Of a stretch of 43,936 bases of DNA, positions 1-17,568 are shown in pieces (positions within the stretch are counted from its first letter, which is position 1; each line of letters opens with the position of its first letter). Source of the DNA: Alphaproteobacteria bacterium. GTDB lineage: Bacteria > Pseudomonadota > Alphaproteobacteria > Caulobacterales > Aquidulcibacteraceae. Under the pieces are notes generated by a model. It was not told the DNA's origin and ran no database searches. It was given only the letters and a program-made list of their open reading frames with translations. The position numbers and the translations under genes were made by a program. Location: assembly GCA_026400735.1 (NCBI GenBank), contig JAPLOL010000035.1, forward strand, positions 1-43,936. The letters run 5' to 3'.

Positions 1-2167
1 GCTCGCCGCTTCTGTCATGTCCTGGCTCGGGCTGCGACTTCGAGATCAGATGATAGCGCCCCACCAGAATGTCCGCACTGGGAGGCCTCATCAGATCAAA
101 CGCCAGCGCCGGGTCGTCGAAACGCGCGCTGTCATCAAGAATAAATCGCGTCAGAGACCAAAAGCGCTGACCGACACGATCAAGCTGCGCCTTAGCGTCT
201 GCTAGCTTGATACGAAGGCGCTGGTGAACGTCATCATCAAAGCGCTCAAACAGCTTTCGCCTCGTGTCATCCATGCGGGCGCGGATGCTCTCGTCCATCT
301 CCGCTTGCAGCTTGTGGAACGCCGCGTCGATTTCCGCCGATGTTCTGCACCCCTGGTAGATTGCGAGAATGCGCTTCTCAAAATCAACGCCGGACTCAAT
401 ACTGCCGAGTACGTCGTCAGACGCACCAAAGACGCCATTGAAGAGGCTGAACTTCTCGCCGAGCAGCTCAAGGACACGTCGATCCGCCTCATTGCGCTCA
501 TTCAGGAAGTTGATGACAACAACATCATGCTTTTGCCCGTAGCGATGGCATCGTCCAATGCGTTGCTCAATCCGCTGGGGATTCCACGGTAGGTCGTAAT
601 TGACCACGAGTGAGCAAAATTGAAGGTTCACACCCTCGGCGGCGGCCTCAGTCGCAAGGAATATCGTGGCTTGGTCGCGAAACTGCTCGACCAAGGCAGC
701 ACGAACATCGATGCCGCGAGAACCTGATGAGCGGCCAGTTTCGCGATTTTTGGCCAGCCAGCTTTCATAAATTTTCGTCGCGTCCGGTCCACCATTTGTG
801 CCATTAAAAAGCACGACCTGACCGGCATAGCCATGCGATTCAAGAAACGCTTTCAGATAGTCTTGTGTCCGGCGGGACTCGGTGAAGATTAGCGCCTTCC
901 GGGCCGCGCCAGTTTCTGCCATTTGCGCGAAGCCAATATCGAGCGCTTTAAGTAGCGTCTCCGTTTTCGTATCGACCGGAATGGCCCGAGCACGGCTCGC
1001 AAGCTCCTGGAGTATCGAAATCTCTTCTCTGAGCTTCTGGCGATCGATCGGTGCGCGCTGATCTTCCGAGCTTTCGGGCAACGCCTCTTCTGCAAGAATG
1101 TCATCGAGGAGATCGCCCTCAATTTCTTCGGCGTCTACAAGCCCCTCGGCAAACTCGGGATCATTCGCGACTTGCTCATCACGCAGGTTTTCGAGACGAA
1201 GCCTGAGAGTATCCAGCGTTCCGGCAATCGCTTGGGAAGAGGAAGCCAGGAGCTTTCGCAAGATGAGAGCGGTCAGGTGGCGTTGTCTGTGAGGAAGCGC
1301 ATAACTGTCGGGCCGTTGGAGGAACGCGGACACGGCCTCATAGAGCGAATGCTCAGCGTCATTCGGCGTGAATGGGCGCGTAATGGCGCGCCGCTCCGTG
1401 TATTGGACATACTCAGTGACTTGGTTGCGAAGCGTGCGCTTGCAAAACGTCGCCAGCCTTTGACGAAGGTCCACTATGCTTCCACCAGCGCTGGCGTACC
1501 GCGCCCGGAATGCATTTATGTCGCCGAACAGGCGCTCGTCGATGAGGGTCGAAAGTCCGTACAGTTCGACCAGTGAATTCTGCAGCGGCGTTGCGGTCAG
1601 CAGCAGTTTCCGACAGTCCTCGGTCGCCCAGCGTATGCCTTGGCCGACCTTATTGCTTGGGCGATAGGCATTCCGAAGCTTATGGGCTTCATCAATGACG
1701 ACGAGATCCCACGAAATCGTCTTGATCTCATCCTTCATGGCGCATGCGTAGTTGTACGAGACAATCAAGATGGCCTTCTCATTCAGAGGCGCGCGGCCCG
1801 CGCGCTGTTCGTCCTTGAAGGTTTTTGCGTCGAGAACCCGCGTCGGGAGATTGAATTTTTCCGAGAGTTCGAGCGCCCATTGCTTTCTGAGCGATGCGGG
1901 GCAGATGACCAGCAATCGACGTTTTCGCTCCGCCCAGAATTGGCAAAGCACGATGCCCGCCTCGATCGTCTTGCCGAGTCCAACCTCGTCGGCAAGCAGA
2001 ACACCCTTTGAAAGCGGCGACTCAAGCGCGAATAGCGCGGCTTCAATCTGGTGAGGATTGAGATCGACTGCTGCGTCGAACAGCGACATCGAGAGACGGT
2101 CCAAACCCGTCGAGGCTCGTCGGGTCAGGTCATGAGCGTAGAATTTGGCTTGATGAGCGGCGATCAC
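1..2167 (-). CDS. SNF2-family superfamily 2 helicase (partial, C-terminus beyond window)
   Basis: A continuous reading frame of at least 722 codons runs leftward off the window edge. Near the N-terminus is Walker A (LADEVGLGKT, about residues 59-67), then VIDEAHKLRN (DEAH at 159-162), and a helicase C-domain with NYDLPWNPQRIEQRIGR and HRYGQ (about 525-547). This order and these motifs are those of the SNF2/RapA-like branch: ATP-driven translocases on double-stranded DNA. The start is a GTG whose first bases overlap the TGA of the upstream RHH gene (GTGA), so the two are translationally coupled. It lies inside an element bounded by a serine recombinase and a tRNA, so a phage-defence or element-maintenance role is possible but only inferred. 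Related helicases occur in several defence systems; the missing C-terminus prevents assignment to one. Confidence 0.9.
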   Translation of the reverse strand, partial: MIAAHQAKFYAHDLTRRASTGLDRLSMSLFDAAVDLNPHQIEAALFALESPLSKGVLLADEVGLGKTIEAGIVLCQFWAERKRRLLVICPASLRKQWALELSEKFNLPTRVLDAKTFKDEQRAGRAPLNEKAILIVSYNYACAMKDEIKTISWDLVVIDEAHKLRNAYRPSNKVGQGIRWATEDCRKLLLTATPLQNSLVELYGLSTLIDERLFGDINAFRARYASAGGSIVDLRQRLATFCKRTLRNQVTEYVQYTERRAITRPFTPNDAEHSLYEAVSAFLQRPDSYALPHRQRHLTALILRKLLASSSQAIAGTLDTLRLRLENLRDEQVANDPEFAEGLVDAEEIEGDLLDDILAEEALPESSEDQRAPIDRQKLREEISILQELASRARAIPVDTKTETLLKALDIGFAQMAETGAARKALIFTESRRTQDYLKAFLESHGYAGQVVLFNGTNGGPDATKIYESWLAKNRETGRSSGSRGIDVRAALVEQFRDQATIFLATEAAAEGVNLQFCSLVVNYDLPWNPQRIEQRIGRCHRYGQKHDVVVINFLNERNEADRRVLELLGEKFSLFNGVFGASDDVLGSIESGVDFEKRILAIYQGCRTSAEIDAAFHKLQAEMDESIRARMDDTRRKLFERFDDDVHQRLRIKLADAKAQLDRVGQRFWSLTRFILDDSARFDDPALAFDLMRPPSADILVGRYHLISKSQPEPGHDRSGE

Positions 2168-2358
2168 GGCTTCCGGCCTCTGGTTTTCTTCGCCGGCTTG
2201 AGGGGCTCATCGTTCGCAGGGTTTATCTCGCCGACATACCGGCGCATGAATTCGCGAATGATCTGCGCAGCGGGGCGATCCTGTTCTCGGCATCGTGCGA
2301 GAAATTTGTCTCGCAAATCTCGTTCAATTCGAATCCGCAGCCCCGTGTCTTTTGCCAT
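2164..2358 (-). CDS. small ribbon-helix-helix-like protein upstream of the helicase
   Basis: A 64-residue protein begins MAKDTGLRIRIERDLRD and has a short beta-strand segment followed by two helices (about residues 6-42) and a basic tail ending KKTRGRKP. This is the layout of MetJ/Arc-type (RHH) DNA-binding proteins, which act as dimers, often as antitoxins or autorepressors. The same frame stays open further upstream, but that stretch reads through the hairpin repeat array and looks non-coding, so the ATG at 2358 is chosen. Its stop overlaps the helicase GTG start by two bases, suggesting a two-gene operon. It may control its own promoter: an inverted repeat lies just upstream at 2365-2383. 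No toxin partner is recognisable. Confidence 0.7.
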   Translation of the reverse strand: MAKDTGLRIRIERDLRDKFLARCREQDRPAAQIIREFMRRYVGEINPANDEPLKPAKKTRGRKP

Positions 2359-2966: not shown

Positions 2967-3368
2967 ATGAAGGAAACCGACCTCACCGCCAAAGTCCTCA
3001 ACAGGATCGAGACTGCTGGCGAACTGACCAACAAGGAGATGGCTTCGCTCGTCTTTGAGCTTGCAACCGAAATGATTGCTAATCCTCATTCAGATGGGGT
3101 AAATATTGGTGGCTACAAAGTACTTGTGAGGAGCGATCTGGAAGAAAAGCGTGCAGTCAGGAAAGGTAAAAAGCTTAGAAAAGCCTTCGAGAGACCGAGG
3201 CCCGACTTGCCTGCTGATGCCCCCGAGAACAGAACGCGCAAGCAAATCGCCCTTACACTACCCCCCGACTTGATTGTTGAGGTAAATGATTATGTCGAGG
3301 CCGAGGATATGGACCGAAACAGGTTCATTGAGGCCGCTATCCGAACCGCATTAGCGCCGAGGCCTTGA
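2967..3368 (+). CDS. hypothetical protein with C-terminal ribbon-helix-helix-like domain
   Basis: A 133-residue protein. Residues about 5-45 look helical and acidic; a basic linker (KRAVRKGKKLRKAFERPRP) follows; the last 45 residues, starting RKQIALTLPPDLIVEVNDYV and ending in DRNRFIEAAIRTAL, match the strand-helix-helix pattern of an RHH domain. RHH proteins are dimeric DNA binders. Palindromes with a shared TATATAC core lie just before the gene and twice just after it, upstream of the recombinase operon, so it may regulate itself and the recombinase. The start ATG has a weak purine stretch (agagg) ahead of it. It is the only gene between the hairpin array and the recombinase unit. Function beyond DNA binding is unknown. 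Confidence 0.75.
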   Translation: MKETDLTAKVLNRIETAGELTNKEMASLVFELATEMIANPHSDGVNIGGYKVLVRSDLEEKRAVRKGKKLRKAFERPRPDLPADAPENRTRKQIALTLPPDLIVEVNDYVEAEDMDRNRFIEAAIRTALAPRP

Positions 3369-3555: not shown

Positions 3556-3807
3556 GTGGGTACACATCCATTGAACCTGAGCGACGACGCGTCCTCCGCA
3601 GGGGCTTCGGTGTTAGACTTGGAGCGCTATCTCCCAGAAGTCGAAGACGCATTCGCATCCGAAGAAGAGGCGATCGAATTTCTGCGCACGCTTTGGAATA
3701 TCATGTGCGCGTTCGTCGATCTCGGTTGGGGTGTAGATTCAGTTCACTTCGCTTTTCCCGAATTCGCGCGTGTGCAAGATCGCGCATCGGAATCGGAGGA
3801 TTCATGA
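3556..3807 (+). CDS. small acidic protein co-transcribed with the serine recombinase
   Basis: An 83-residue acidic protein (LERYLPEVEDAFASEEEAIE, then a Trp-rich helix FLRTLWNIMCAFVDLGWGVD). The GTG at 3556 is chosen because a strong AAAGGAGG ribosome site at 3541-3548 precedes it by seven bases; an earlier ATG at 3493 has no such site. Its stop overlaps the recombinase ATG (ATGA), so the two are translationally coupled. Such coupling suggests a partner of the recombinase, for example a directionality or regulatory factor, but no domain is recognised and this role is inference. Confidence 0.65.
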   Translation: MGTHPLNLSDDASSAGASVLDLERYLPEVEDAFASEEEAIEFLRTLWNIMCAFVDLGWGVDSVHFAFPEFARVQDRASESEDS

Positions 3808-5375
3808 GCGAAGCGAAGATCGACGCCGCGCTGATCTATTGCCGCGTTTCAAGCAAGAAGCAGGAGATCGAAGGCAGCGGCAAGCTCAGTCAAGAACACC
3901 GCTGCCGTCAGTATGCCGCGACGCTTGGCGTGCCCGTCGAAACAGTTTTCGGCGACACCAAAACTGCGGGCGGCGATTTTATGACGCGCCCTGGCATGGT
4001 CGGCGTGATCCAGCATTTGAGAGCCAATCGCCGCAAGCGCTATATCGTGATCTTCGACGATCTGAAGCGCTTTGCGCGCGATACCGAATTTCACTGGACG
4101 CTGCGCCGAACGCTAGAGAAGCACAACGCCATTCCCTACTGCCTGAACTTCCGATTTGAGAACACGGCGGAAGGAAGATTCTTCGAGACGATCGTCGCGG
4201 CGGGCGGAGAGTTGGAGCGTCACCAGCTCGGACGCCAGGCCGTGCAGAAAATGACGGCGCGCGTCGAGCAAGGATATTGCGTCACCAAAGCGCCGCTCGG
4301 CTATCGCTATCAGCGCACGAAAACCGAAGGAGCGCTGCTCGTACCCAATGAGCCTTTCGCGTCCATCGTCAAAGAAGCACTCGAAGGTTTTGCCTCGCGG
4401 CGTTTTGAATCGCTCGCCGAGGTTCAGCGCTTCCTCGAAAGCTTTCCCGAATGGCCGCGTCAAAGATCCGGTAAGCGCAAGGGCCTGACCAACGAAAACA
4501 TCGTGTCAGCCATGCTGCGCCATCACGTCTATGCAGGTTTGGTGTCCGCGCCGTATTGGGGCGTCACCCTTCGTGAGGGTCGCCACCAAGCGCTGATCGG
4601 AGTCGATACACACAACAGAATTCTTTCGCGCCTCAAGGGCGATAAGCGCGCACCGGCGCGCAAGGATTTGAGCAAGGACTTCCCTCTGCGCGGCTTTGTG
4701 AATTGCGCCTGCGGCACGCCGCTCACGGCATCTTGGCCGCGCGGTCGTAACGGCCATTATGCCTATTACTTCTGCTTCAATCGCGCCTGTGAGAGCTACG
4801 GAAAGAGCATTAGGCGCGACAAGATCGAAGGGGAGTTTGAAGCGCTGCTCAAGGCGCTCGCCCCTTCGGCGAACCTCGTCCGGCTGGCGGTCGATATGTT
4901 CGAACGGGCTTGGGAAATGCGCCGCCGCACCGCGACAGGACGCTTAGACAGTCTTCGCACCCAACTCAGAGACACAGAGCGCCAGATCGAAACGACGGTC
5001 GATCGTGTGATCGAAGCCAAGACACAAGTCGTGGCCCACGCGCTCGAAGAACGCGTTGAAAAGCTCACGAAAGAGAAGCTGGCTTTAGCCGAAAAGATTG
5101 CCCGTAGCGCTCAGCCGCTGAAGAGTTTCGAGCAGTCACTTAGAACCGCTCTCACATTCCTCGCAGAGCCCTGGAAACTATGGAATTCTGACCGCATCGA
5201 GCACAAGCGTGCGGTGCTGAAACTGGCGTTTTCGGGAAACCTGCAATATGCGCGAAATGAGGGGTTTAGAACCGCCGATTTAGCCTTGCCTTTCATGGCA
5301 TTGGCCAACTTTTCGGCGGCTGAAAAAAGGATGGTGGGCGCGACAGGGATTGAACCTGTGACCCCTCCCGTGTGA
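3804..5375 (+). CDS. large serine recombinase (site-specific integrase)
   Basis: A 523-residue large serine recombinase. The N-terminal resolvase domain begins IYCRVSSKKQ, with Ser16 as the expected nucleophile. It is followed by a recombinase domain (about 165-290), a zinc ribbon (NCACGTPLTAS near residue 298 and YFCFNRAC near 322), and a charged coiled-coil (about 350-450), the usual order of the family. These enzymes cut and rejoin DNA between att sites to integrate or excise elements. The ATG at 3804 overlaps the preceding small gene by four bases. The last codons (GATGIEPVTPPV) are antisense to the tRNA-Val gene at 5332-5406, and the stop TGA falls in the complement of the anticodon loop. 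The real functional C-terminus probably ends just before; the tail shows that the element joins the chromosome here. Confidence 0.93.
   Translation: MSEAKIDAALIYCRVSSKKQEIEGSGKLSQEHRCRQYAATLGVPVETVFGDTKTAGGDFMTRPGMVGVIQHLRANRRKRYIVIFDDLKRFARDTEFHWTLRRTLEKHNAIPYCLNFRFENTAEGRFFETIVAAGGELERHQLGRQAVQKMTARVEQGYCVTKAPLGYRYQRTKTEGALLVPNEPFASIVKEALEGFASRRFESLAEVQRFLESFPEWPRQRSGKRKGLTNENIVSAMLRHHVYAGLVSAPYWGVTLREGRHQALIGVDTHNRILSRLKGDKRAPARKDLSKDFPLRGFVNCACGTPLTASWPRGRNGHYAYYFCFNRACESYGKSIRRDKIEGEFEALLKALAPSANLVRLAVDMFERAWEMRRRTATGRLDSLRTQLRDTERQIETTVDRVIEAKTQVVAHALEERVEKLTKEKLALAEKIARSAQPLKSFEQSLRTALTFLAEPWKLWNSDRIEHKRAVLKLAFSGNLQYARNEGFRTADLALPFMALANFSAAEKRMVGATGIEPVTPPV
5332..5375. other. candidate attachment site (att) at the 3' half of tRNA-Val
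   Basis: The recombinase gene ends within the 3' half of the tRNA, so the crossover should lie in or next to this segment. The partner att site should be a copy of part of the tRNA 3' end beyond the left edge of the window. The exact core cannot be set from one end alone. Confidence 0.4.
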
Positions 5376-5406
5376 AGGGAGTGCTCTCCCGCTGAGCTAC
5401 GCGCCC
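5332..5406 (-). tRNA. tRNA-Val (anticodon CAC)
   Basis: A full cloverleaf reads on the minus strand: acceptor GGGCGCG/CGCGCCC, D arm GCTCAGCGGGAGAGC, anticodon stem CTCCC/GGGAG with loop TTCACAC (anticodon bases at 5374-5372), T arm ACAGG TTCAATC CCTGT, discriminator A and encoded CCA. It decodes GUG. Its 3' half is overlapped by the 3' end of the serine recombinase gene on the other strand, the typical look of a tRNA used as an integration target with the 3' end restored by the element. Confidence 0.95.
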
Positions 5407-5506
5407 GGAAACCAGGGCTTCCGAAGGGCGCGGACCATAAGGTCCGCGGCGCCTGCGTCAAGCTTGCCTCGTGCAAGGGCTTGACCTTGGCGACGATTGC
5501 GGTGCA

Positions 5507-5525
5507 ATTGCAAACGCTTCGCAAT
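5507..5525. promoter_or_regulatory. Fur-like operator upstream of the iron transporter
   Basis: ATTGCAAACGCTTCGCAAT is a 19-base imperfect palindrome (ATTGCnAA...TTnGCAAT), 18 bases before the likely start of the iron-binding protein. Inverted TTGC/GCAA boxes resemble Fur/Mur-type sites of alphaproteobacteria. Location before a ferric transporter supports iron-dependent repression. Regulator identity is inferred. Confidence 0.5.
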
Positions 5526-5543
5526 ATCGTCGGGAGATCACCT

Positions 5544-6575
5544 CTGTCACTCCACCTAAGCCGCCGCGGTCTTGTCCTTGGAGCGTCTGCTACAGCGCTC
5601 GCCGCCTGCGCTGGGGGCGGCGACAAGTTCATCAACCTCTACACGGCGCGGCACTACGACGCCGACCGCGCGCTCTACGCTGGTTTCCAGGAAGCGACGG
5701 GCATTGAGGTGCGTGCGCTGACGGGAAGCGCAGAACAATTGCTTGAGCGCTTGAAGGCCGAAGGTTCGGAGACCGAGGCGGATGTTTTCATCAGCGCCGA
5801 CGCCGGCAATCTCTGGAAGGTCAAGGACGCCGCGCTTTTCCAGAACGTGACGACGCCGACCCTGCAGGAAAAGGTCCCGTCGCATCTGCGTGACGCCGAT
5901 GGCGCCTATTGGGGCTTCACCAAACGCGCCCGCATTATCGTCTACCGCAGGGACGCGGTGCGCCCCGAAGAAGTCGCGACCATGGACGCGCTTGGCACGC
6001 CACGTTTCCGTGGCCAGATCGTGATGCGCTCTTCCTCGAACGTGTATCAATTGTCGACTTTGGCCTCGCGCATTGAAAGGCTCGGCGCCGACAACGCGCG
6101 CGCCTGGGCGGCGGCAGTGCACAGCAATTTCGCGCACGATCCTCAAGGTAGCGATACCGATCAGATCAAAGCGGTTGCTGCCGGCGAAGCGCAGGCGTCA
6201 TTGGTCAACCACTACTATTATTTCCGCATGCTACGCTCTGAGGATCCGGCAGATCGCGCGGCAATCGAGAAAGTCGGGTTTGTATTTCCCGACCAGGCGG
6301 GCTCGGGCGCCCACATCAACATTTCTGGCGGCGGGATCACTGCTCACGCCAAACGGCGGGACCTCGGCGTCCAATTCCTCGAGTATTTGGTGAGCGACGC
6401 AGCGCAAACCATGCTAGCGCCGCTCAACACTGAATTCCCGATCCGCCCTGAAATAGCGCCAGCGCCAGATTTGGCTGCGGCGGGCGCGTTCAAAGAAGAG
6501 AATATCCCGCTCGATGCGCTGGGCCGCCACCAAGCGGATGCTTCGCGTCTCTTTGAAGAAGTGGGTTGGACCTAA
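5544..6575 (+). CDS. ferric-iron ABC transporter substrate-binding protein
   Basis: A periplasmic Fe(III)-binding protein of the FbpA/FutA type, 343 residues from the position chosen. The N-terminus has a twin-arginine signal (LSRRGLVLGASATALAAC) with a lipobox-like LAAC, suggesting a Tat-exported lipoprotein. FINLYTARHYD opens the mature domain, and a NHYYYFRM tyrosine cluster suits iron ligation. No ATG, GTG or TTG lies in frame between the Fur-like site and the signal peptide. CTG at 5544 has a GGGAGA ribosome site six bases ahead and gives a normal signal length. Earlier in-frame TTG/GTG codons (5481, 5487, 5502, 5508) would place the start before or inside the palindrome. It is first in an operon with permease and ATPase genes. 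Confidence 0.85.
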   Translation: MSLHLSRRGLVLGASATALAACAGGGDKFINLYTARHYDADRALYAGFQEATGIEVRALTGSAEQLLERLKAEGSETEADVFISADAGNLWKVKDAALFQNVTTPTLQEKVPSHLRDADGAYWGFTKRARIIVYRRDAVRPEEVATMDALGTPRFRGQIVMRSSSNVYQLSTLASRIERLGADNARAWAAAVHSNFAHDPQGSDTDQIKAVAAGEAQASLVNHYYYFRMLRSEDPADRAAIEKVGFVFPDQAGSGAHINISGGGITAHAKRRDLGVQFLEYLVSDAAQTMLAPLNTEFPIRPEIAPAPDLAAAGAFKEENIPLDALGRHQADASRLFEEVGWT

Positions 6576-6602
6576 GCCAACACACGTTAGAAGCAGCGGC
6601 GC

Positions 6603-8177
6603 ATGAGCCTCGCCGCATCCCCCGCCCGCCCCAAGACGACGCCCCTCGACGGTGTGGCGATCGCGGCGGCCATCGCGACTTTGATTTGCGCCGCTCCTGC
6701 GGTCGCGGTCATCGCACTGGCGCTTACGCAACACGCAGATGCTGGGTTCGGTGCAGCACTGATCGCACAAGGCGCGCTCGGTACAGCGACCTTGGTGCTC
6801 ATCGGTGGAGCAGGCGCGATCGTGTTTGGCTCGGCAGCTGCGTGGCTCGTTACGCTTTGCAATTTCCCAGGACGGCATATTTTCGAATGGGCGCTCGCAA
6901 TTCCGCTAGCGGCGCCGAGCTACATTCTAGCTTACGCGTACGCGAGCATGACGTGGGCCGGCGGCTCGCCTGTGCCTGTTGAAGGCACATGGGGCGCCGC
7001 CTTCATCTACGCCGTCGGGCTATATCCTTATGTTTACCTCGCCGCGCGCGCGTCGTTCGCGAGCCAGTCCGCCTGCGCGCTCGAAGCGGCTCGCATGTTG
7101 GGCGCATCGCCGTGGCGGGTGTTCTGGCGCGTGGCATTGCCTTTGGCGCGACCCGGTATCGCGGCGGGCGCCGCGCTCGCATGCATGGAAATTGCCGCTG
7201 ACTATGGCGCCGCGCAGCATTTTGGTTTGAGCACGCTTTCGACTGCAGTGTTTCGTGCCTGGTACGCGCACGGCGACCCCGCACTGGCGCTGCAGATTTC
7301 CGGCGTATTGCTTGTGGCTGCCACCGTGCTCTTGTTCGCCGAACGCAGCGCGCGCGGGCGCGCATCTTATGCAGGCGGCTCATCCCGCTGGCGGACCTTG
7401 CCGCGCTACAATCTCAAACCAGCCGCGTCCGCGCTTGCGGTGACTTTCTGTGCGGTGCTGATCACGCTCGGCGCTCTACTGCCGCTCCTTTGGCTCGCGC
7501 GCCTGGCTGTGTTGCATGCAAACGTGCAGGACATCGTACGGCCGTTCATCAACTCGATCGCGCTATCGTCGCTCGGCACGGTGATTACGCTCGCCCTTGC
7601 TGCAGCGATTGCAGTGGCGGCGCGGCGCGCGTCCGCTTGGGGCAAAGCCCCGTTGTTCGCGGCAGGCATGGGATACGCAGCGCCAGGCGCAGTGATTGCG
7701 CTTGGGGCGCTCTCGTTGTTTGGATTGGCGCGCGAAGCGGGCTGGGTCGGCGGCTTAGGCGCGACGCTTTCGCTTGCCGCACTGTTCTGGACTTACGCTT
7801 CGCGTTTCTCCGCTGCGGGTGTGGGGCCGATCGATGCTGGACTTGCGCGATTGTCGAAGGGACTTGACGCATCGGCGCGCACTCTGGGCGCCGGCCCCTG
7901 GCGACGCTTCGCAACGATTGATTTGCCGATCGCTGCGCCTAGCTTGGCGGCGGCGGCGCTCATCCTTTTCGTCGAGATTTTGAAAGAACTTCCGGCGACC
8001 CTAATCTTGCGTCCGTTCAACTTCGATACACTTGCCGTGAAAGCGTATTCCTACGCGAGTGACGAGCGACTGCTGCAAGCAGCGGCGCCGTCTCTACTCA
8101 TCTTCCTCGCCGGCCTCGCGCCGATCATCATCCTCGCGCGCAACATCGAACGCGGGCGCGCCGGAGCTTCCTCATGA
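6603..8177 (+). CDS. ferric-iron ABC transporter permease (fused two-domain type)
   Basis: A 524-residue inner-membrane protein with about 12 hydrophobic segments arranged as two homologous halves, as in FbpB-type iron permeases. EAARMLGASPWRVFWRVALP in the first half and LDASARTLGAGPWRRFATID in the second are the EAA coupling loops that dock on the ATPase. It should pass Fe(III) from the binding protein to the cytoplasm. It starts 27 bases after the binding-protein stop and overlaps the ATPase ATG by four bases (ATGA). Both EAA loops look intact, in contrast to the broken ATPase gene next to it. Confidence 0.93.
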   Translation: MSLAASPARPKTTPLDGVAIAAAIATLICAAPAVAVIALALTQHADAGFGAALIAQGALGTATLVLIGGAGAIVFGSAAAWLVTLCNFPGRHIFEWALAIPLAAPSYILAYAYASMTWAGGSPVPVEGTWGAAFIYAVGLYPYVYLAARASFASQSACALEAARMLGASPWRVFWRVALPLARPGIAAGAALACMEIAADYGAAQHFGLSTLSTAVFRAWYAHGDPALALQISGVLLVAATVLLFAERSARGRASYAGGSSRWRTLPRYNLKPAASALAVTFCAVLITLGALLPLLWLARLAVLHANVQDIVRPFINSIALSSLGTVITLALAAAIAVAARRASAWGKAPLFAAGMGYAAPGAVIALGALSLFGLAREAGWVGGLGATLSLAALFWTYASRFSAAGVGPIDAGLARLSKGLDASARTLGAGPWRRFATIDLPIAAPSLAAAALILFVEILKELPATLILRPFNFDTLAVKAYSYASDERLLQAAAPSLLIFLAGLAPIIILARNIERGRAGASS

Positions 8178-9184
8178 GCGTGCAACTGACGAACGTGCGC
8201 CGCTCTTACGGAAAAACGCCGGTGCTCGACGGCGTTTCCTTCACTGCTCCGGAAGGCCAGGTCGTTGCACTGTTGGGACCATCGGGCTAAGGCAAGTCGA
8301 CGATTCTGCGCCTCATTGCCGGACTTGAGCCTGTCGATACCGGCGAGATCCATCTGAGCGGCGAACGTGTTTCCGGCGGAGGGGCAATGCTCGCCACCGA
8401 GGCGCGGCGCATCGGCATGGTGTTTCAAGACTATTCGCTTTTTCCACATCTGACCGCCGGCGCGAACGTCGCGTTCGGCCTCGACAAGCTTGACCGTGCG
8501 GAGCGCGACGAGACGGCGCTGAAATGGCTAGATCGCGTTGGACTGAAACACCGCGCCAATGCGTATCCGCACGAACTCTCCGGCGGCGAGCAACAGCGTG
8601 TAGCGCTAGCGCGCGCGCTGGCACCGAAGCCGCGCGCGATCCTGCTGGATGAACCTTTCTCAGGTCTCGACGCTGGGCTGCGTGCGGAGTTGCGCGACGC
8701 CACGCTGGCGACGCTGGCGGAGACACGCACGACGACATTGTTCGTCACGCATGATGCTGAAGATGCGCTGCAGGCCGCTGATCGAATTGTGATCATGAAG
8801 GCTGGGCGCGTGCTGCAGGAAGGTGTGCCGCGCGAGGTGTATGATCGGCCAACTTCGCTTGATGCCGCCTCGGCACTGGGACCGGTCAATGTCTTCAAGG
8901 GCATCGTTAGCGACGGGGCGATTGCGACACCGTTTGGCTTGGTCCGCGCCACGCATCTCGCCGATGGCACAGCAGCCATCGCCGTTGTTCGCGCCGAGGC
9001 GTTGACGCTTTCACCGAGCGGCGAGGTTCGCGTCGCCGCTCAGCGACCGCACGGAGCACACGATTTGGTGCGCGTCGAAGCTCAAGGTGTGACGTGGCGC
9101 GCACTTACCCTTGCGCGTCAGCCGCTCGGCGAAACCGTGTCGGTAGAAATTCAGCCCGCTGGCGCGTTCGCGTTTTCGGCCTGA
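8174..9184 (+). pseudogene. ferric-iron ABC transporter ATPase with in-frame TAA in Walker A
   Basis: From the ATG at 8174 the frame encodes a typical FbpC-type ATPase of 336 codons: Walker A reads GPSG-stop-GKST (stop TAA at 8288-8290, codon 39), Q-loop VFQDYSLFPH, signature LSGGEQQR (about 135), Walker B AILLDEP, H-loop FVTHD, then a C-terminal TOBE-like domain. The stop replaces a position that is normally Cys or Ser. Everything after it is intact, so the lesion is recent or a base-call error. Restart at ATG 8387 would give 265 residues without Walker A, which should not bind ATP. If real, the transporter lacks its own motor unless another ATPase substitutes. Confidence 0.88.
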
Positions 9185-10125
9185 TCGTCAGCAGGCTTGC
9201 GCAGCACGAAACGGCGGCGCTCCAGACGGCGCGTCGCGAGCAGTTGTAGGCGCATACGCCACGCTTCGGTTTCCCAGGCGAGTTCGCGCGCGACCGGAAC
9301 TTCCAGCGCGCCGGCTGCAGCTAGACGCTCACCCAATTGTTTGAACGCGCCGCGCGCCGTGAACAAAAAGTCCTCGGTCATGTCCTCGTCGGCCTCGAGC
9401 GCAAAGCCCGTGCCAGAGAGTGCTTGCAACACGTCGCCATGCGCACGGATTTGCGGCTCAGCGAACGATGAAGCGAATGCGGTCATGATTTCAGGAACGT
9501 TGAACCCCACGTAGCACTCGACGACTGCGCATGCGCCTGACTTCAACGACTTGAACAACTGCGCCGCCAAGTGCGGCGGGTGCCCGCAATAGGCGAAGTC
9601 GTCGATACTCAGCAGGCCGTCATAGGCGCCGGGCGTGAATATGTGCGTTTCAAGATCGATGCGCGTAGCGCTGATGCGATCGTCGAGCTTGGCTTTCTTT
9701 AGACCATGCTTCAAAGCGTCGAAGGTTTCCTCGCGCCATTCGAAGACATCGATCTTTCCCGGGTGGGCGGCGGCTACAGCGGCCATGACGCCGGAGAGGC
9801 CCGGGCCGAGTACGGCGAGCGTGCCCGTAGGCGCCAGGCCTATGCGCGCGGGTTCGAGGCGATCAGCGGTGGCGTCACCTGGGCGGACGCGGTCATCGCC
9901 CCAGAGCACGGCGAGCGCTTGCAAACGCGGCGGCAGATCGTAGGGCAGCTCGTCGAAGAGCTCGTCCTCAGAGACATCGTTAGCGACAGGTTCAGCAGCG
10001 AGCTTGGCTTCGATCTCAGCCAGAGCAGCTTCAGGGTCGAAATCGGCGCCATCCCACCAGGCGCGCAACTTCGCGCGCGTGAGCGCCATCCCCTTCTTAT
10101 CAAAGAGAGCCTTTTTGGCCGTCAT
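9151..10125 (-). CDS. SAM-dependent methyltransferase-like protein
   Basis: A 324-residue soluble protein with a Rossmann-like core: LAVLGPGLSGVMAAVAAAHP (about 103-122) resembles the SAM-binding glycine loop, followed by an acidic strand end (KIDVFEW) and LLSIDDFAYCGHPP. This looks like a class I methyltransferase fold, but the substrate cannot be told. The N-terminal 90 residues are acidic and unlike the core. It converges on the iron ATPase gene with a 34-base 3' overlap. A run of Arg residues near the C-terminus (TRRLERRRF) is notable. Annotation is by fold pattern only. Confidence 0.7.
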   Translation of the reverse strand: MTAKKALFDKKGMALTRAKLRAWWDGADFDPEAALAEIEAKLAAEPVANDVSEDELFDELPYDLPPRLQALAVLWGDDRVRPGDATADRLEPARIGLAPTGTLAVLGPGLSGVMAAVAAAHPGKIDVFEWREETFDALKHGLKKAKLDDRISATRIDLETHIFTPGAYDGLLSIDDFAYCGHPPHLAAQLFKSLKSGACAVVECYVGFNVPEIMTAFASSFAEPQIRAHGDVLQALSGTGFALEADEDMTEDFLFTARGAFKQLGERLAAAGALEVPVARELAWETEAWRMRLQLLATRRLERRRFVLRKPADDQAENANAPAG

Positions 10126-10151
10126 AGTGGGGCGACCCTAGGCCAATGACG

Positions 10152-11183
10152 TTAACGATTTGCTTGAATTACCGGTAAAAGCGGCGGGGCCTGGGACGGC
10201 AGTGGAGCGTCTGGGTCGTCGATAAAGGCCAAAATGTCGTTGAAGACGACTTCGCGCTGGTTGTCGCGCAGGAGCCAGTGCCAGCCATTTTCGTAGAGCG
10301 CTGTCCGGGCCGAGGACGGAAGACGGCGGGCGGCGGCGATGGCCGAGTTGCGCGGGATGATCTGATCGTGCGCGCCATAGAGAAAGAGAACGTGGCCATC
10401 GAGGTTGGCGGCGTGCTCGGACGCAGTCTCCATCAAGCCAACGAGGCCGTAGACGGCGTCGATGCGCGTCGACCAAATCATGTGCGGCGCGCGCCCCGCT
10501 TGCAGAAGCGCGGCCTGATTGTCCGAGGCAGTCACACGGCGCACGACGCCGCGGGGCGGTTGCACAGCGCGCCATGGGAATGTGTGCGCGCCGACCCACA
10601 GCGCGAGCGCGTACTGATCCGGCATCGTCGACCAGCCCCACACTGCAGGCGCGACGAGCACGAGGCGATCTACGGTTGGCGCGCCGGGCGCACCGAAGGT
10701 GGCAATAGCTTCGGCCGACCCCATCGAGTCACCGACAACGACGATCTCAGCGTTCGGATAGGTGCGGCGCGCGACCATAACGGCGGTGCGCAAATCTTCC
10801 GTCATCAGACGCTCGCCTGCCCACACGCCCCGACGCGGCGAACGGCCAAAGCCGCGCGCATCGTAAGCGAACGTAGCTACACCACGCTCTGCGAACCATG
10901 GGCCTGAAAGGTAGAAGGTGTTGGCGTAATCGTTCATGCCGTGCAGACCGATGATCACGGCGCGCGGTTCGGCATTGTTCGACGGCAACCACGCGGTAAG
11001 ACCAAGTTCGGCGCCGTCGAAGGAGACAAAGCGTTCGGCGGTTGGCTCGAAGCGCGGCCCCTCAAATCCATCGAGCGGCGAATTCGCGCGCTGCACCGTC
11101 GGCACGCAGGCAACGAGCACCATCAATGCAAGGCAGATGAAACCCTGCGCCGCAACTCGGGAAGCAAATCTGTTTCGAACCAT
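10152..11183 (-). CDS. alpha/beta hydrolase lipoprotein (lysophospholipase-like)
   Basis: A 343-residue protein. The ATG at 11183 gives a signal peptide ending in LVAC (Cys26), a lipobox, so it is probably an outer or inner membrane lipoprotein. The hydrolase fold is clear: oxyanion region LHGMNDY, nucleophile GDSMGS, acid in YGAHDQIIP and base in NGWHWLLRD. The layout matches serine aminopeptidase S33 / monoacylglycerol lipase-like enzymes acting on esters of lipids. The frame is open further upstream, but that part is antisense-like to the uracil glycosylase coding frame and lacks the signal peptide. Its first 61 bases overlap the 3' end of that glycosylase gene on the same strand, so the two are likely co-transcribed. 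Confidence 0.85.
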   Translation of the reverse strand: MVRNRFASRVAAQGFICLALMVLVACVPTVQRANSPLDGFEGPRFEPTAERFVSFDGAELGLTAWLPSNNAEPRAVIIGLHGMNDYANTFYLSGPWFAERGVATFAYDARGFGRSPRRGVWAGERLMTEDLRTAVMVARRTYPNAEIVVVGDSMGSAEAIATFGAPGAPTVDRLVLVAPAVWGWSTMPDQYALALWVGAHTFPWRAVQPPRGVVRRVTASDNQAALLQAGRAPHMIWSTRIDAVYGLVGLMETASEHAANLDGHVLFLYGAHDQIIPRNSAIAAARRLPSSARTALYENGWHWLLRDNQREVVFNDILAFIDDPDAPLPSQAPPLLPVIQANR

Positions 11184-11707
11184 GGATTGCGCTTCAGCCA
11201 GCCCGTATTTCGCCACGACGGATGCGGCAAAGGCATGACGTTGGCGGGGTATTCGCGCCATGCGCGCACCGTTTCGCTCAACGTCTTCTTCGCCGCAGCG
11301 CCGAGATGATAGCGTTGCGCATAGGCGCCGACTAGAAGCGTCAGACCCACATTTTTCAAAAGTGGCAGAAGGCGCGGACGCCAAAGCGGCGCGCATTCGC
11401 GTCGTGGCGGCAAATCTGCACCGTTCACCGTGCCGGGGAAGCAAAATCCCATAGCTGCGACGGCGATATTGCGTTTGTCGTAGAACGTTTCGCTGTCGAG
11501 TTGCATCCAGTCGCGCAGACGATCGCCGGATGCGTCGTTCCACGGAATGCCGCTTTCATGCACACGCCTGCCTGGCGCCTGGCCAGCGATGAGAATGCGC
11601 GCGCGAGCATCGACCCACACAACCGGACGCGGCTCGTGCGGTAGCGCATCAGCACAGACTCGGCAGGCGGCGATTTCGGCAACAATGGATTTGAGTGCGC
11701 GTGACAC
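11123..11707 (-). CDS. uracil-DNA glycosylase superfamily protein
   Basis: About 194 residues. CRVCADALP near the N-terminus recalls the Cys motif of COG1573 glycosylases. ILIAGQAPGRRVHESGIPWN is the active-site loop (motif A) with a downstream GDRLRDWM helix, and PLPHPSWRNTGW is the C-terminal DNA-intercalation motif. The enzyme would remove uracil or related bases from DNA. The variant GQAPG(R)RVHESG differs from the GEAPG-D/E form of classic family 4. No ATG is usable: the GTG at 11707 is the best start between the TetR stop and the conserved domain, but it has no clear ribosome site, so the start is uncertain. Confidence 0.75.
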   Translation of the reverse strand: MSRALKSIVAEIAACRVCADALPHEPRPVVWVDARARILIAGQAPGRRVHESGIPWNDASGDRLRDWMQLDSETFYDKRNIAVAAMGFCFPGTVNGADLPPRRECAPLWRPRLLPLLKNVGLTLLVGAYAQRYHLGAAAKKTLSETVRAWREYPANVMPLPHPSWRNTGWLKRNPWFETDLLPELRRRVSSALH

Positions 11708-11784
11708 AGCGCGTGTTAGCGCAAATTGCCCGCGCGCGTCGACGACCGCGGGCAGCGCCTGCCACGGTTGTTGCAGCGCATGAG

Positions 11785-12345
11785 CTAGGCATCGTCGAGC
11801 ATCGCTGCGGCGCTCAGGCGTGCGAACGCTGCTTCCATCTGTTCTGGCGTGCGGTTGAAGCTGTTCAGCATCCACCAGCGGATCAGGCCCATGAGACCGG
11901 CGGCGACGTAGACCGCGGTTTCGTGACGTCGCGCGGCGTTCCAAGCAGGCGCGCGCACTTTGAGATTTTCATCCACGATCTCACGGAGTTTGGCTTCGCC
12001 GGCGATGAACACCTGCGTACTGAACTCCGACTGCACAAACTGCGCTGCGAACTCTTGGGCGGAATACACGTGCGCAAACAGGTAACGTGCAGGCGCGAGC
12101 GCGGTGCGATCAGGGATCTGTGCCCGTTCGTCACGCTCGCCGGCGCCGATCATGCCTACAAACGAACGGATCAGGAAATCTTCTTTGTTGGAATAGTGAC
12201 CGTAAAAAGTGGAACGAGCTACCCCGGCTGCGCCGACCAGATCGCCAACGTCGATACCGTCGATAGAGCGACTCGCGCCGAGATCCATCAACGCCTGGCT
12301 CAACAAAGTTCGCGTGCGCGCGGCGCGACGGTCGATATTGGACAC
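11785..12345 (-). CDS. TetR/AcrR-family transcriptional regulator
   Basis: A 186-residue regulator. The N-terminal helix-turn-helix is visible in ALMDLGASRSIDGIDVGDLV and GVARSTFYGHYSNKEDFL, the hallmark of TetR proteins; the rest is the helical ligand-binding domain. The GTG at 12345 is preferred over an in-frame ATG at 12402 because a GAGGG site precedes it at short spacing. It is transcribed away from a membrane-protein gene at 12427; the 81-base gap probably holds the shared operator, so the membrane protein is its likely target. The ligand is unknown. Confidence 0.88.
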   Translation of the reverse strand: MSNIDRRAARTRTLLSQALMDLGASRSIDGIDVGDLVGAAGVARSTFYGHYSNKEDFLIRSFVGMIGAGERDERAQIPDRTALAPARYLFAHVYSAQEFAAQFVQSEFSTQVFIAGEAKLREIVDENLKVRAPAWNAARRHETAVYVAAGLMGLIRWWMLNSFNRTPEQMEAAFARLSAAAMLDDA

Positions 12346-12426
12346 GTGACCCTCATTTGTCCGGGAACTGCAAGCGACCGGTGTTTCGAGGCAGGTTAGC
12401 ACGGCTCTCTAATCGAGGAGAGTGCA

Positions 12427-13056
12427 ATGGACGATCTGGCGAGCACGCGTGTCGGTGCATGGGCGATTGTTGCGGGCACGATCATGAGCGTCACGCTCAT
12501 GATCGCTCACCCGACGCGCCTGGGAACGATGCAGATCGGGCCGTTCGATCTCAATGTCATCGTGCACGCCACTGCAGTGCTCGCGATGCCGCTATTGGTA
12601 TTTGGCGCGTGGACACTGACTAAGATGATCAATCGTCCGCTCGGGTCGCTGGCGCTTGCGTTCTACCTTTTTGCTGGTGTGGCTATCATGTCGGCGGCGA
12701 TCATGAGCGGCTTTGTGATGACGCAAATCTCCATGGCCGCGAACGCCCCCGGCGCCTCGAACACCGGTCTCGACTTCCAAAGTCTGGCCAATCTCACCCG
12801 TTGGCAGAACCGATCTTATGCGAACGTTTATACTGGGTTGTCAGCCATCGCGGTGTTGTTGTGGTCAATCGCTTGGCGGGCCGCTCCGCTGCAGCGCATC
12901 CTCGGGATCGCCATCGGTGGAGCGACTTTAGCTTGGATGTTGACCGGTACGCTGACGTTGAACATTCATGGCATGCTGGCTGTCACTTTAGGCCAAGCCG
13001 TGTGGATGCTGGTTGCGGCGCGGAAGATGATGGACCTCGCCAAGGGGAGCGTCTGA
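12427..13056 (+). CDS. integral membrane protein, possible TetR target
   Basis: A 209-residue protein with about six hydrophobic segments (for example AWAIVAGTIMSVTLMIAHPT, IVHATAVLAMPLLVFGAW, LALAFYLFAGVAIMSAAIM and TGLSAIAVLLWSIAWRAAP). No known family is recognised. The ATG follows a good GAGGAGAG ribosome site. It faces the TetR gene across 81 bases, an arrangement usual for regulator plus controlled membrane protein. A transport role is possible but is not shown by any motif. Confidence 0.75.
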   Translation: MDDLASTRVGAWAIVAGTIMSVTLMIAHPTRLGTMQIGPFDLNVIVHATAVLAMPLLVFGAWTLTKMINRPLGSLALAFYLFAGVAIMSAAIMSGFVMTQISMAANAPGASNTGLDFQSLANLTRWQNRSYANVYTGLSAIAVLLWSIAWRAAPLQRILGIAIGGATLAWMLTGTLTLNIHGMLAVTLGQAVWMLVAARKMMDLAKGSV

Positions 13057-13077
13057 CGGCTAACACGCTCCGCTGCC

Positions 13078-15147
13078 CTATTTCGCTGGCGCGAGTTCTT
13101 GCGCGGGAGTCGCTTCGACCATCTCTGCTATCACCGTGAGCGAGAACAGCGATCCCTTGCCGGATTCACTGCGCACGGTGACGTCACCACCCATCAAGCG
13201 CGCCATGCGCCGGGTGATAGCAAGGCCGAGGCCGGTGCCGCCAAATGTGCGCGTTGTTGAAGACTCCGCCTGGACGAACGGCTCGAACAGATCTTCGAGT
13301 TTACCCTCCGGGATGCCGATGCCGGTGTCTTGCACGCCGAAGATGAACATGCCTTCGCGCATGGTGACGCGCAGCGTGATCTGGCCGTCGTGCGTGAACT
13401 TCGATGCGTTGGACAACAGGTTCAACAAACACTGGCCAAGCTTGAAATCGTCGACGCGCGCCAGCGGCAAGCCCGGCTGCACATCGAGGATCACCTTGTT
13501 GCCGTTGGCTTCAGCTTGCAGACGCACAGCGTCAACCGCGTCGCGCGCGATATCGGCGATGCTGGCGTCGCGGATATCGAGCACCATGCGCCCTGCCTCG
13601 ACCTTCGACAGATCAAGAATCTCGTTGATCAGCCGGAGCAGGCGCCGCGCGGCGGTGAGGACGCGATCATGGTCGGCGATATCACCACCCTCGTCCTCTG
13701 CATCCTCGCGCATCATTTCGGTGTAACCAATGATAGCGTTGAGCGGCGTGCGCAGTTCGTGGCTCATAGTCGCCAAGAATTGCGACTTGGCGGCATTGGC
13801 GGCATCGGCGCTGGCGCTGGCGGCAGCAAGATCGTTCATCCGCTCGACGTCACGTCGATCGCGCTCGGCAAGCGCGCGCGCGAGTTCTCCAATCTCGTCG
13901 GCGCGCAGAGTGAGATCATCGATCGACAAGCTTGCATTGGTGCTGGCGGCTTCGGTCAGCCGCAGTGTCGGGCCAACCACCCAGCGATACATGAGCAGCG
14001 CCAACAACAGCACCTGCGCGATGACGGCCAGAACGCCAATGAGCAAGAACACGCCGGCGCTCTCACTCGCGTGCTGCGAAGCGGCCTGCCGCGGCACGAG
14101 AGACAGGAATATCCAATCCGGCCCCGCGATACGCGCGAACACGACATAATTGCCGTTCACTGGCTCGGGCATGACGCCGCTGTCTCTGCCCGATTGCGTG
14201 ATGTAGTCCATGACGCGCGCGATCCCAAGATCGCTCGCCACTTCAGCGGCGGCCTGCGAGGAGCCGCTTAGCGACAGGCGCGGATGCGCGATCAGGGCGC
14301 CGCGACGATCAAGGATCGCCGTGGTGGTGCCTGGCAACGCCGCACGCACAGACGCTTCGAGATTATCCGCCACGGTGATGCTGGCGCCCCATGCGCCCAG
14401 ACGGCGCCCGTCCAAATCCACCGGTGTCACGCAAGCGGAAGAAAGGCGCGTGTTGGAGCGATCGGTAATGAGGCTCCGCAAGCCGGTGCAGCGGGTCAGC
14501 GCTTCCGGATTCGCCTGCGGCGTCGAGATTTGAGCGAACTCTTCGTGCTGGAAATCGAACGTGCCCGGCGCCTCGCGCCGATAGTACGCCAATCGATCCT
14601 CGCGATCGGGTGCGTACATCACCATCCGATTGCTCGGCGTGAAGAAGTACATGTTGTTCAGGCGCTCGTGGACGAGCGGCCCCATGTCGCGCAGGACCAG
14701 GAACGCGGCGTAGAGTTCGCGTTTATCCTCAGTTGTCATCGCGCGGCCATCGGCCATGAACGAGCCGATGCCGGCGACATCCACGTCATCGGCGTCGCGG
14801 CCGCCGTCGAACAACATGTTGGCGCTGCGGCGCGTGCCGTCGTCCTGAAGCGGAAAGAGGCGATCGAAGCGGCGCGCTGTTTGGGCGGGATCGAGCCGGC
14901 TCAAGTGCTGCTGGAAAAGTTGACGTGCGCCACTTTGCACGAAGCGCAGATCGTCAAAGACTCGCTCTTCGGTTTTGCGGCGTTCGGTCAGGTAGGCCAG
15001 CGTTGAATCGAGCGCGGCGCGCATCGAGGTCTCGCGATACACCAGGAACGCCGCGGTCGAACCAGCGGCGGTCACCAGGATCGTCGAGATCAGGACCGCT
15101 GCTGCGATCCTTCCCGCGATTGAACTCTTGAACGCACGCCGCAACAC
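13078..15147 (-). CDS. membrane-bound sensor histidine kinase
   Basis: A 689-residue kinase beginning with GTG. TM1 (about 10-35) and TM2 (about 365-391) flank a large periplasmic sensing region of double Cache-like size. It is followed by a HAMP-like linker, the HisKA domain with [18 protein letters not shown] (phosphorylated His463), and HATPase with N box [12 protein letters not shown]1 VQDTGIGIP and G2 [14 protein letters not shown]. No receiver domain or adjacent response regulator is present, so it is an orphan whose partner is elsewhere. The sensed signal is unknown. The 134-base stretch between its start and the next gene shows no clear element. Confidence 0.92.
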
Positions 15148-15281
15148 GAGCGAGGCCCCACCAGTAAAGAATGTATCTCTTCAGCGCGATCACTTGCGAT
15201 TTCGCAAACGTCACTGCCAAAAGGCTGAGGCCAAGACGTTAAAAAGCATTCGCATATGTGACTGGGGCGTTCAGACTTGCG

Positions 15282-15713
15282 CTAGGACGCTCCTGCGGCG
15301 CGATAGCGGAGACGCACAGCGGGGATGACGCCTACATCAATCTCCATGTGTGCGCATTCAAAGCCGGGCGCTTTGATTTGACGATGCATGTCGCCGGCGC
15401 GGCGGAGGACACTGAGCATGGAGGCGCCGATCTTGTTGTCCTTCAGCGCTTCGCGGGCGGCGGCGATGTCTTCGTCGCTCGCGGGGTACGGCATGAAGTG
15501 AGCGATGACTTTGGGGGTGATGCCGAGTTCGATTTCGAATTCGCGGAGATCGTAGCCAGCTCGCTTCAGCGCCGGGAGCGCGGAGAGGAACGCGCCGAGT
15601 GTCTCCTGCACTTTTTCAGCGCCGAACGCTTTTAGTTCGGCGAGCTTCTCGCCGGGCAATGCTGCGATGCCCTTGGCGCGCTCTGCGAGTGTTTTGCGTG
15701 GGTCTTGCGTCAT
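15282..15713 (-). CDS. conserved hypothetical protein (143 aa)
   Basis: A soluble protein starting MTQDPRKTLAERAKGIAALP; the ATG at 15713 is chosen because the longer frame overlaps the neighbouring small gene. The N-terminal part is a likely amphipathic helix with charged residues (LAELKAFGAEKVQETLGAF). The C-terminal part has mixed strands (GYDLREFEIELGITPKVIAH). No catalytic motif or family is recognised. It lies 26 bases after a small membrane protein on the same strand. Confidence 0.7.
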   Translation of the reverse strand: MTQDPRKTLAERAKGIAALPGEKLAELKAFGAEKVQETLGAFLSALPALKRAGYDLREFEIELGITPKVIAHFMPYPASDEDIAAAREALKDNKIGASMLSVLRRAGDMHRQIKAPGFECAHMEIDVGVIPAVRLRYRAAGAS

Positions 15714-15739
15714 GGATACACTTACGGCTTGCGGATGCC

Positions 15740-15913: not shown

Positions 15914-15920
15914 ATGCGCC

Positions 15921-17564: not shown

Positions 17565-17568
17565 GAGA

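Follow-up and report, generated by a model that had tools for sequence, protein, structure and literature searches.

Which system begins with the two overlapping genes at the left end of contig JAPLOL010000035.1 of an Alphaproteobacteria bacterium (Aquidulcibacteraceae)? The window analyzed in this study is the whole stretch of 43,936 bases, which represents an entire contig (C84) of a 173-contig assembly. A small gene encoding a ribbon-helix-helix (RHH)-like protein overlaps the start of a SNF2 helicase gene that runs off the contig end, and a preliminary description had suggested that this pair might form a compact defense or anti-defense module on an integrative element. Our analysis makes it likely that the two genes are the front of a phage-defense operon on an inserted island, in which an RHH controller is joined to a RapA-type motor and the methyltransferase (Mod) and nuclease (Res) of a type III restriction-modification system are expected further left.

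Two Overlapping Genes at the Contig End

Both genes are encoded on the minus strand. The first (2164–2358, ATG at 2358) encodes a 64-aa RHH-like protein, a putative controller and first gene of the operon according to a sub-threshold match to the Pfam model RHH_9 and to relatives that head restriction operons. The second (2–2167) encodes a SNF2/RapA-type ATPase of the accessory helicase family of type III restriction-modification systems; it starts with GTG, is open at the contig end (base 2), and comprises the N-terminal 722 residues of about 960. Its full-length relatives have approximately 950–980 aa, so about a quarter of the protein is missing, and because the window spans the whole contig this missing part corresponds to the assembly end. 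The helicase motifs are intact in the visible part (GLGKT at residue 63, DEAH at 159, TATP at 191, ATEAAAEG at 505, and QRIGRCHRYGQ at 535), and the Pfam domains SNF2-rel_dom (E 1.1e-32) and Helicase_C (E 1.6e-18) were identified. The TGA of the RHH gene and the GTG of the helicase gene share the four nucleotides GTGA (2164–2167, minus strand), an arrangement that we read as translational coupling of the two genes; several relatives start at the codon aligned with this GTG. The gene pair was thus correctly delineated in the preliminary description, both for the GTG start that overlaps the RHH stop, with more than 720 helicase residues visible, and for the presence of a DNA-binding-type partner gene ahead of the helicase.

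Helicase Relatives and Their Type III Restriction Neighbors

Relatives of the helicase were gathered from plasmids, relatives of the host, genome contigs (the best 80 loci), and viral contigs (75 loci, from the best 80 matches). Profiles of SNF2, three Mod classes, and three Res classes were built from 11 loci and searched against the open reading frames (ORFs) of 167 loci, i.e., 155 from genome and viral contigs together with L024–L034 and L191. Close homologs were defined by an SNF2 profile score of at least 900 (n = 117; the window helicase scores 1220), and the 81 loci with at least 8.5 kb of downstream sequence were counted. A Mod and Res pair is present in 77 of these 81 loci (33 of class A, 34 of class B, and 10 of class C), downstream and on the same strand in 74 of the 77, and subtraction of the 11 profile-source loci leaves 66 of 70. 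Because some loci are near-duplicates (e.g., L029 and L115 have identical SNF2 rows), these tallies are numbers of loci and not of independent events. Distant SNF2 proteins (score below 300) lack the pair in all 14 loci, and PADLOC recognized the partners in L028, L030, and L032 as type III methyltransferase and restriction enzyme.

In the tree, the window helicase clusters with L036, L028, L116, and L024 (local support 99), and class A Mod and Res are present in the three of these four loci that reach far enough. The SNF2 protein of L036, from a Planctomycetota metagenome-assembled genome (MAG), is 79% identical to that of the window, while L028 comes from the host's own family and L024 from a Bacteroidota plasmid; the helicase gene therefore appears to cross phyla, with the proviso that MAG bins can be contaminated. 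Considering the pair in 77 of 81 relatives together with this tree position, a Mod methyltransferase and a Res nuclease-translocase of the same class as those of Eco86II would be expected left of the contig end.

The same gene order, SNF2-Mod-Res, with Mod and Res of class A, was found on the chromosome of Escherichia coli NCTC86 (Eco86II), whose SNF2 protein is 58% identical to the window helicase over 708 aa. Motif IV of Mod is DPPY in three relatives, a motif that cannot separate N4-methylcytosine (m4C) from N6-methyladenine enzymes. Six m4C type III systems were described in 2021 (PMC8259958), and in two of them, Eco86II and BspHIV, mod is immediately preceded by a conserved gene for a helicase-like ATPase; more than 500 genomes carry homologs of this ATPase close to mod and res, and the protein is dispensable for methylation and apparently also for partial cleavage in vitro, its role being left unclear (PMC8259958). 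By sequence, the window helicase is a member of this accessory-ATPase family. The window thus adds a new member to a family that is already known.

These results change part of the preliminary description. Its statement that the neighbor set matched no system that could be named does not hold for the close homologs, given the type III pair beside 77 of 81 of them and the three-gene layout published for Eco86II and BspHIV (PMC8259958). The proposed defense role is in line with a defense-type gene having type III relatives, while nothing was found that points to anti-defense. A partner methylase and nuclease, suggested to lie to the left, are probable from the relatives and were not found in the assembly. 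The restriction neighbors of the relatives are not what a housekeeping helicase, the contrary outcome that had been considered, would show.

Besides these genes, the operons of the relatives contain additional material. Gaps longer than 300 nt separate SNF2 from Mod in 42 of 88 loci and Mod from Res in 20 of 88, a few of them reflecting split genes and not cargo. Among 80 nested ORFs (some Mod and Res fragments included), the Pfam families AAA_21, AAA_15, and SMC_N were each matched 11 times, AIPR six times, RhuM five times, and DUF4276 three times, and the most frequent PADLOC models were each hit by 5 to 7 of these ORFs; examples of defense-like cargo are L024, L026, L074, L100, and L107. 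As judged from this gene content, SNF2-type III operons gather further defense-like genes inside. The SNF2-type III operon of E. coli LS45 (L193) has a small helix-turn-helix (HTH) head gene, named MAD1 of the methylation-associated defense system (MADS) in its record, with abortive infection (Abi) and AIPR genes nested before Mod.

Relatives of the RHH-Like Protein Head Different Restriction Operons

To characterize the position ahead of SNF2, 114 loci with a score of at least 900 and enough upstream sequence were surveyed for small ORFs (45–130 aa, ending between −100 and +20 of the SNF2 start), which occur in 55 of them. The 67 small ORFs scanned against Pfam at E ≤ 0.01, the window's included, matched HTH_17 (15), HTH_3 (12), and HTH_26 (11), in overlapping sets, as well as RHH_1 (2) and Phd (1). 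The recognizable regulators ahead of SNF2 hence belong to the HTH_17, XRE-type HTH, CopG-type RHH, and Phd groups, and this slot, on sequence grounds, often holds a DNA-binding protein, with different folds. By reading, the two RHH_1 matches are those of L086 and L097, which are not similar to the window RHH, and none of the upstream ORFs gathered from other SNF2 loci matches it at E ≤ 1. A conserved RHH-SNF2 pair was accordingly dropped, and the compact RHH and helicase unit of the preliminary description gives way to RHH relatives that head other restriction systems; as the pair did not recur, its usual genomic place cannot be judged.

Relatives of the RHH protein itself stand ahead of a variety of genes. 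Matches were found in 92 plasmid records, eight of which were examined, six being picked by identity and organism after the site described below was known from three loci. On a Sphingobium plasmid the relative heads a type I R gene (over the NCBIfam cut-off), in G020 it heads HsdM- and HsdS-like genes (below cut-off), in G454 a type I M protein, and in G031, with a 4-nt overlap, a restriction endonuclease of the BPTD_3080 family (over cut-off). On plasmids of Paraburkholderia, Pseudomonas putida, and Delftia, it is followed by genes annotated as C5 methyltransferase and NotI- or NgoMIV-family endonuclease. On viral contigs, it precedes a C5 methyltransferase in L279 and, by reading, in L277, L278, L280, and L282, a homolog of annotated N-6 DNA methylases in L275, and a homolog of annotated DNA methyltransferases in L276. 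It is also located ahead of an SNF2-related protein from another family in G295 and ahead of an AAA ATPase and a helicase, which we take to be Gabija-like, in Methylocystis (L247). The overlap of 4 nt between the RHH gene and the next gene recurs in L226, L251, L252, L275–L280, L282, and L283 and is absent in L223, L225, L228, L248, and L256. Taken together, the RHH protein looks like a portable controller of different restriction systems.

A Putative Operator Shared by Close RHH Relatives

A palindrome, GTGTAGCCAATGGATACAC, conserved ahead of the relatives, is present at 2365–2383, 7–25 nt upstream of the RHH start codon, and reads GTGTATCCATTGGCTACAC on the strand of the RHH gene. It is the sole copy in the window at up to two mismatches and in the genome at up to one. 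Thirty-five RHH loci that had been found by protein similarity and could be scored were compared (L222, L238–L241, and L246 stand outside the count, with no start or no match). The predicted strand G-[LIMF]-R-x-[RG]-[IV] is shared by 18 of the 35, referred to here as close relatives, a class boundary weakened by having been drawn after inspection. Within 60 nt upstream, both half-sites TGTATCCA were identified in 15 of the 18 close relatives and at least one in 17, compared with none in the 17 distant relatives; letter shuffles of the 18 upstream regions gave both halves in 3 of 36,000. The loci are partly non-independent, L251 and L252 being alike far upstream (the only pair with at least 14 of 20) and L278–L280 sharing bases around the site by eye. 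Two geometries were observed, with half-sites either facing at about −25/−16 or apart at about −39/−25. The one close relative lacking a half-site, L283, is located ahead of a methyltransferase-like ORF and has a changed strand (GLRIGV) and, by eye, changed sites, apparently a joint change of protein and site. In L247, the RHH gene is apparently frame-shifted after residue 34, and the window operator is kept letter for letter (19 nt).

Reverse searches were also performed. Among 385 genomes, the pattern GTGTANCCANTGGNTACAC matched two (this genome and G295), in both cases directly ahead of an RHH gene; G454 was missed by this pattern, its RHH site differing at the ends. In IMG/VR, two operator patterns retrieved 14 and 7 loci, 7 of the 21 being ahead of this RHH family, and a protein search of the same collection with close RHH relatives as query refound six of these seven and added L281–L283. 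The other 14 of the 21 are not ahead of such an RHH gene, chance matches being expected in a large collection.

The RHH family thus presents a first operon gene next to whose start a palindromic site is conserved, the window's own restriction-modification genes being out of view. Gene 1 would be an autoregulatory controller that binds the palindrome ahead of its own start and holds operon expression low; binding and repression at 2365–2383 are presumed from the conserved site. No published description of an RHH controller of restriction systems was found in the literature searched, which included few of the subscription papers, and as far as this literature shows, the RHH protein and its operator seem to constitute a previously undescribed variant among restriction controllers. 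With such a portable switch and its readable operator, regulated restriction systems might be recognizable from sequence, and one could ask how newly arrived restriction genes spare their host.

Possible Function of the Accessory ATPase

The predicted structure of the full-length relative L028 (mean predicted local distance difference test score, pLDDT, 80) aligns with RapA (8t0l_F) over 733 residues, covering residues 10–969 of the model (Z 19.3, root-mean-square deviation 4.4). Most other SNF2 chains among the matches listed cover only about residues 25 to 650 of the model, several with a similar core Z. RapA is an E. coli SNF2 ATPase that recycles RNA polymerase. The window helicase scores 173 bits against the RapA equivalog model, below the 576 bits that this model requires.

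The partners of the ATPase are exchanged between loci. L041 and L106 encode SNF2 proteins that are 83% identical over 974 aa, with Mod proteins only 26% identical over 378 aa and Res proteins that share no significant similarity, and at least 11 changes of Mod/Res class are needed over 91 loci on the FastTree tree, in which 32 of 148 inner branches are weak. In these comparisons, ATPases that are almost the same accompany Mod/Res pairs unrelated to each other.

Type III enzymes meet by diffusive sliding that follows a short ATP-driven step, and EcoP15I did not displace streptavidin (PMC11142916). Since this sliding is diffusion after a short ATP burst, DNA-bound proteins should stop these enzymes. 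From the sliding, the undisplaced streptavidin, and the RapA likeness, we propose that the ATPase, encoded by gene 2 and coupled to the RHH gene, may act as a RapA-type SNF2 motor on double-stranded DNA that clears obstacles to sliding; phage DNA would be freed of RNA polymerase or of other bound proteins, so that Mod-Res complexes could meet. Such a role would fit both the dispensability for methylation and partial cleavage in vitro and the exchange of partners. The extra type III ATPase has been in print since 2021 with no function assigned to it, and its RapA likeness and exchange suggest work on obstacles over a subunit role.

Combining the two genes leads to a broader proposal, which we put forward tentatively and with slightly less than even confidence. 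The RHH family, marked by the strand signature G-L/I/M/F-R-x-R-I/V and the common half-site TGTATCCA, may be passed as a prefabricated switch among defense operons of the type I, type II, type III-linked, and helicase kinds, often coupled to the first structural gene by an overlap of 4 nt. In the window, it would have become the partner of a RapA-like motor that clears the way along transcribed phage DNA for a type III enzyme. Through the shared operator, such systems within one cell would be able to repress one another upon entry. If true, the common operator might serve as a general license for the horizontal acquisition of restriction genes.

Alternative Explanations

Several observations weigh against the interpretation proposed here. 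The window RHH matches only the Pfam family RHH_9, with an E value of 0.0017 below the cut-off, and because this is its sole match the RHH assignment is likely and not firmly shown; its single-sequence structure model, which is of low value, has two helices and no strand, and the family profile found no match in PDB. Taken alone, the window palindrome is marginal, since shuffling of the 100 nt upstream produced an equally good one in 53 of 1000 cases, and in the 608-nt intergenic stretch, which contains a second such palindrome, one as good occurs in 315 of 1000 shuffles, so that it is solely the comparison across loci that carries the operator. The Mod, Res, and C-terminus of the window helicase were not found elsewhere in its own genome assembly, an empty answer that is weak given 173 fragments, and because of their absence the body of the operon is only predicted. 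Four of the 81 close homologs lack the pair (L064 and L156 have neither gene, L102 and L114 only Mod), 36 of the 117 were left out for short downstream sequence, and the link fades with distance, to 4 of 8 loci at SNF2 scores of 650–900 and 0 of 2 at 300–650. The roadblock-clearing role is one that we infer, and mass spectrometry of partially purified Eco86II revealed no ATPase peptides (PMC8259958).

Four other explanations were considered. The helicase might be the DrmD protein of a class 1 DISARM (defense island system associated with restriction-modification) locus, with drmMI, drmA, drmB, and drmC past the contig end. DrmD is indeed its top library name in both PADLOC (649 bits) and NCBIfam (659 bits), and at L150, whose SNF2 protein is 41% identical, the DrmA, DrmB, and DrmMII models match (L103 looks similar by its ORF lengths). 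Yet the curated cut-off of 950 bits is not reached by the window helicase, and four full-length relatives likewise score only 646–713 bits, so truncation is not the cause of the low score; L150 and L103 belong to a separate six-row clade that also holds the type III-linked L104, L151, and L154; no DISARM gene name appears in any of the four annotated plasmid loci first examined; and 77 of 81 close relatives have type III Mod/Res beside them. DISARM, our first reading from the library names, was therefore dropped on full-length scores, the neighbors of relatives, and the tree, and we now regard it as very improbable. A stand-alone two-gene defense unit, or the remains of a decayed operon, would agree with the absence of Mod and Res from the assembly, with the SNF2 genes of L064 and L156 that lack the pair, and with L228, where an RHH protein of this family precedes a different SNF2-related gene; we consider it improbable, however, as even the C-terminus of the helicase is missing from this 173-contig genome and 66 of 70 non-seed relatives have the pair.

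The RHH protein, instead of controlling an operon, might be an antitoxin of the RelB/ParD kind. More distant relatives are annotated as antitoxins and followed by RelE/ParE or Fic genes, and on the upstream side of two plasmid loci there are a VapC pair (L251) and a divergent YafQ-family toxin gene near the RHH gene (L252). Against this, the gene that follows a close relative encodes a restriction enzyme, methylase, helicase, or ATPase and not a toxin, and the common operator of the close relatives is absent from the 17 distant ones; an antitoxin is thus hardly credible here. As for the ATPase, it could be a true type III subunit that moves Mod-Res or loads Res and has no action on obstacles, as its conserved operon position would allow and as the authors left open by not deciding whether it supplements Res translocation (PMC8259958). 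We think this unlikely, although less so than the preceding alternatives, since the exchange of SNF2 across unrelated Mod/Res classes argues against a specific interface and the Eco86II preparation lacked ATPase peptides (PMC8259958). An RHH controller followed by an obstacle-clearing motor at the front of a type III operon remains the explanation that we prefer.

L150 deserves mention in its own right: one gene run (3700–17731) combines a type III Mod and a weak match to Res with a C5 methyltransferase (matching the DrmMII model), a DrmD_b-like SNF2, DrmA, and DrmB, and it may connect type III restriction with DISARM.

An Island at a tRNA-Val Gene

On the right of the two genes, the window contains a large serine recombinase gene (3804–5375, plus strand; 523 aa, Resolvase and zinc ribbon domains), whose 3′ end overlaps the gene of tRNA-Val(CAC) at 5332–5406 (minus strand). 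According to the tRNA call and genome alignments, this tRNA gene is the attachment site, from which chromosomal synteny begins. A small 83-aa gene (3556–3807, plus strand) overlaps the recombinase start (ATGA) and has homologs beside the recombinase in G006 (73%) and G018 (35%); the recombinase itself has counterparts at this tRNA with 94% (G006) and 56% (G018) identity. The chromosome right of tRNA-Val, with iron-transport genes by eye, is conserved in the genus, and among the best matches listed the alignments start at 5325–5333, i.e., at the tRNA end, except that of G006, which continues past the tRNA because it shares the recombinase. Across nine genus mates, most neighbors on the far side of the tRNA are mutually unlike, the exceptions being the recombinase region common to the window, G006, and G018 and about 3.8 kb common to G020 and G017. 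An island integrated at the tRNA gene, as the preliminary description had assumed from the window alone, is thus supported by the synteny break and the adjacent recombinase, and its movement is presumed from them. In G018 (L215, 4094–6820), oligonucleotide cyclase and phospholipase effector models match near the related recombinase, a pair of the type of the cyclic oligonucleotide-based antiphage signaling system (CBASS); 10 ORFs of L215/L217 were scanned with PADLOC and 2 matched. The tRNA-Val site therefore looks like a hotspot able to carry defense genes.

Between the RHH gene and the recombinase side, an apparently non-coding stretch contains imperfect direct repeats (2602–2797, spacing 64–68 and 132 bases). 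A divergent 133-aa gene (2967–3368, plus strand), transcribed away from the RHH/SNF2 operon, is RHH-like in its C-terminal third, by a match to YlcI_YnfO_N of NCBIfam under the cut-off (E 0.0031) and otherwise by eye; it may be part of the element.

Comparison with Known Systems

The closest known counterparts are Eco86II and BspHIV, with which the window shares the ATPase family; relatives of the window gene are likewise located 5′ of mod-res, and its closest relatives carry class A Mod/Res. It differs from them in being headed by an RHH-like gene, whereas at NCTC86 an HTH regulator fragment is all that lies upstream, and in that its own Mod and Res are unseen and predicted from relatives. 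DrmD of class 1 DISARM belongs to the same SNF2 branch and is the best library name, but the window protein lies under the curated score and in another clade, and its relatives have type III neighbors. With RapA, the model of L028 (SNF2 core and RapA-like C-terminal region) aligns over its full length along RapA residues 124–966, the window itself lacking the C-terminus; the first 120 or so residues of RapA have no counterpart in the model, identity is only 17–21%, and the helicase family has a restriction context. As in tRNA-targeting serine-recombinase defense islands, the recombinase overlaps tRNA-Val, and the related recombinase of G018 has CBASS-type genes next to it at this site; for the island in the window, the left end lies beyond the assembly.

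For the head gene, the known counterparts are C proteins, RptR (PMC12255303), and WYL regulators (PMC9122601). In all of them, as in the RHH family, a small gene heads a restriction or defense operon with a palindromic site beside its start. RptR is described as helical, with a TAGCTA site and a tie to type I systems (PMC12255303); the 140 nt preceding the window RHH gene contain no such site, and no HTH model, the domain of classical C proteins, matches the window RHH in Pfam at E ≤ 1. Different from these regulators, the window family is RHH-like, has an operator composed of TGTATCCA pairs, and has members ahead of restriction or defense genes of several kinds, type I and type II among them.

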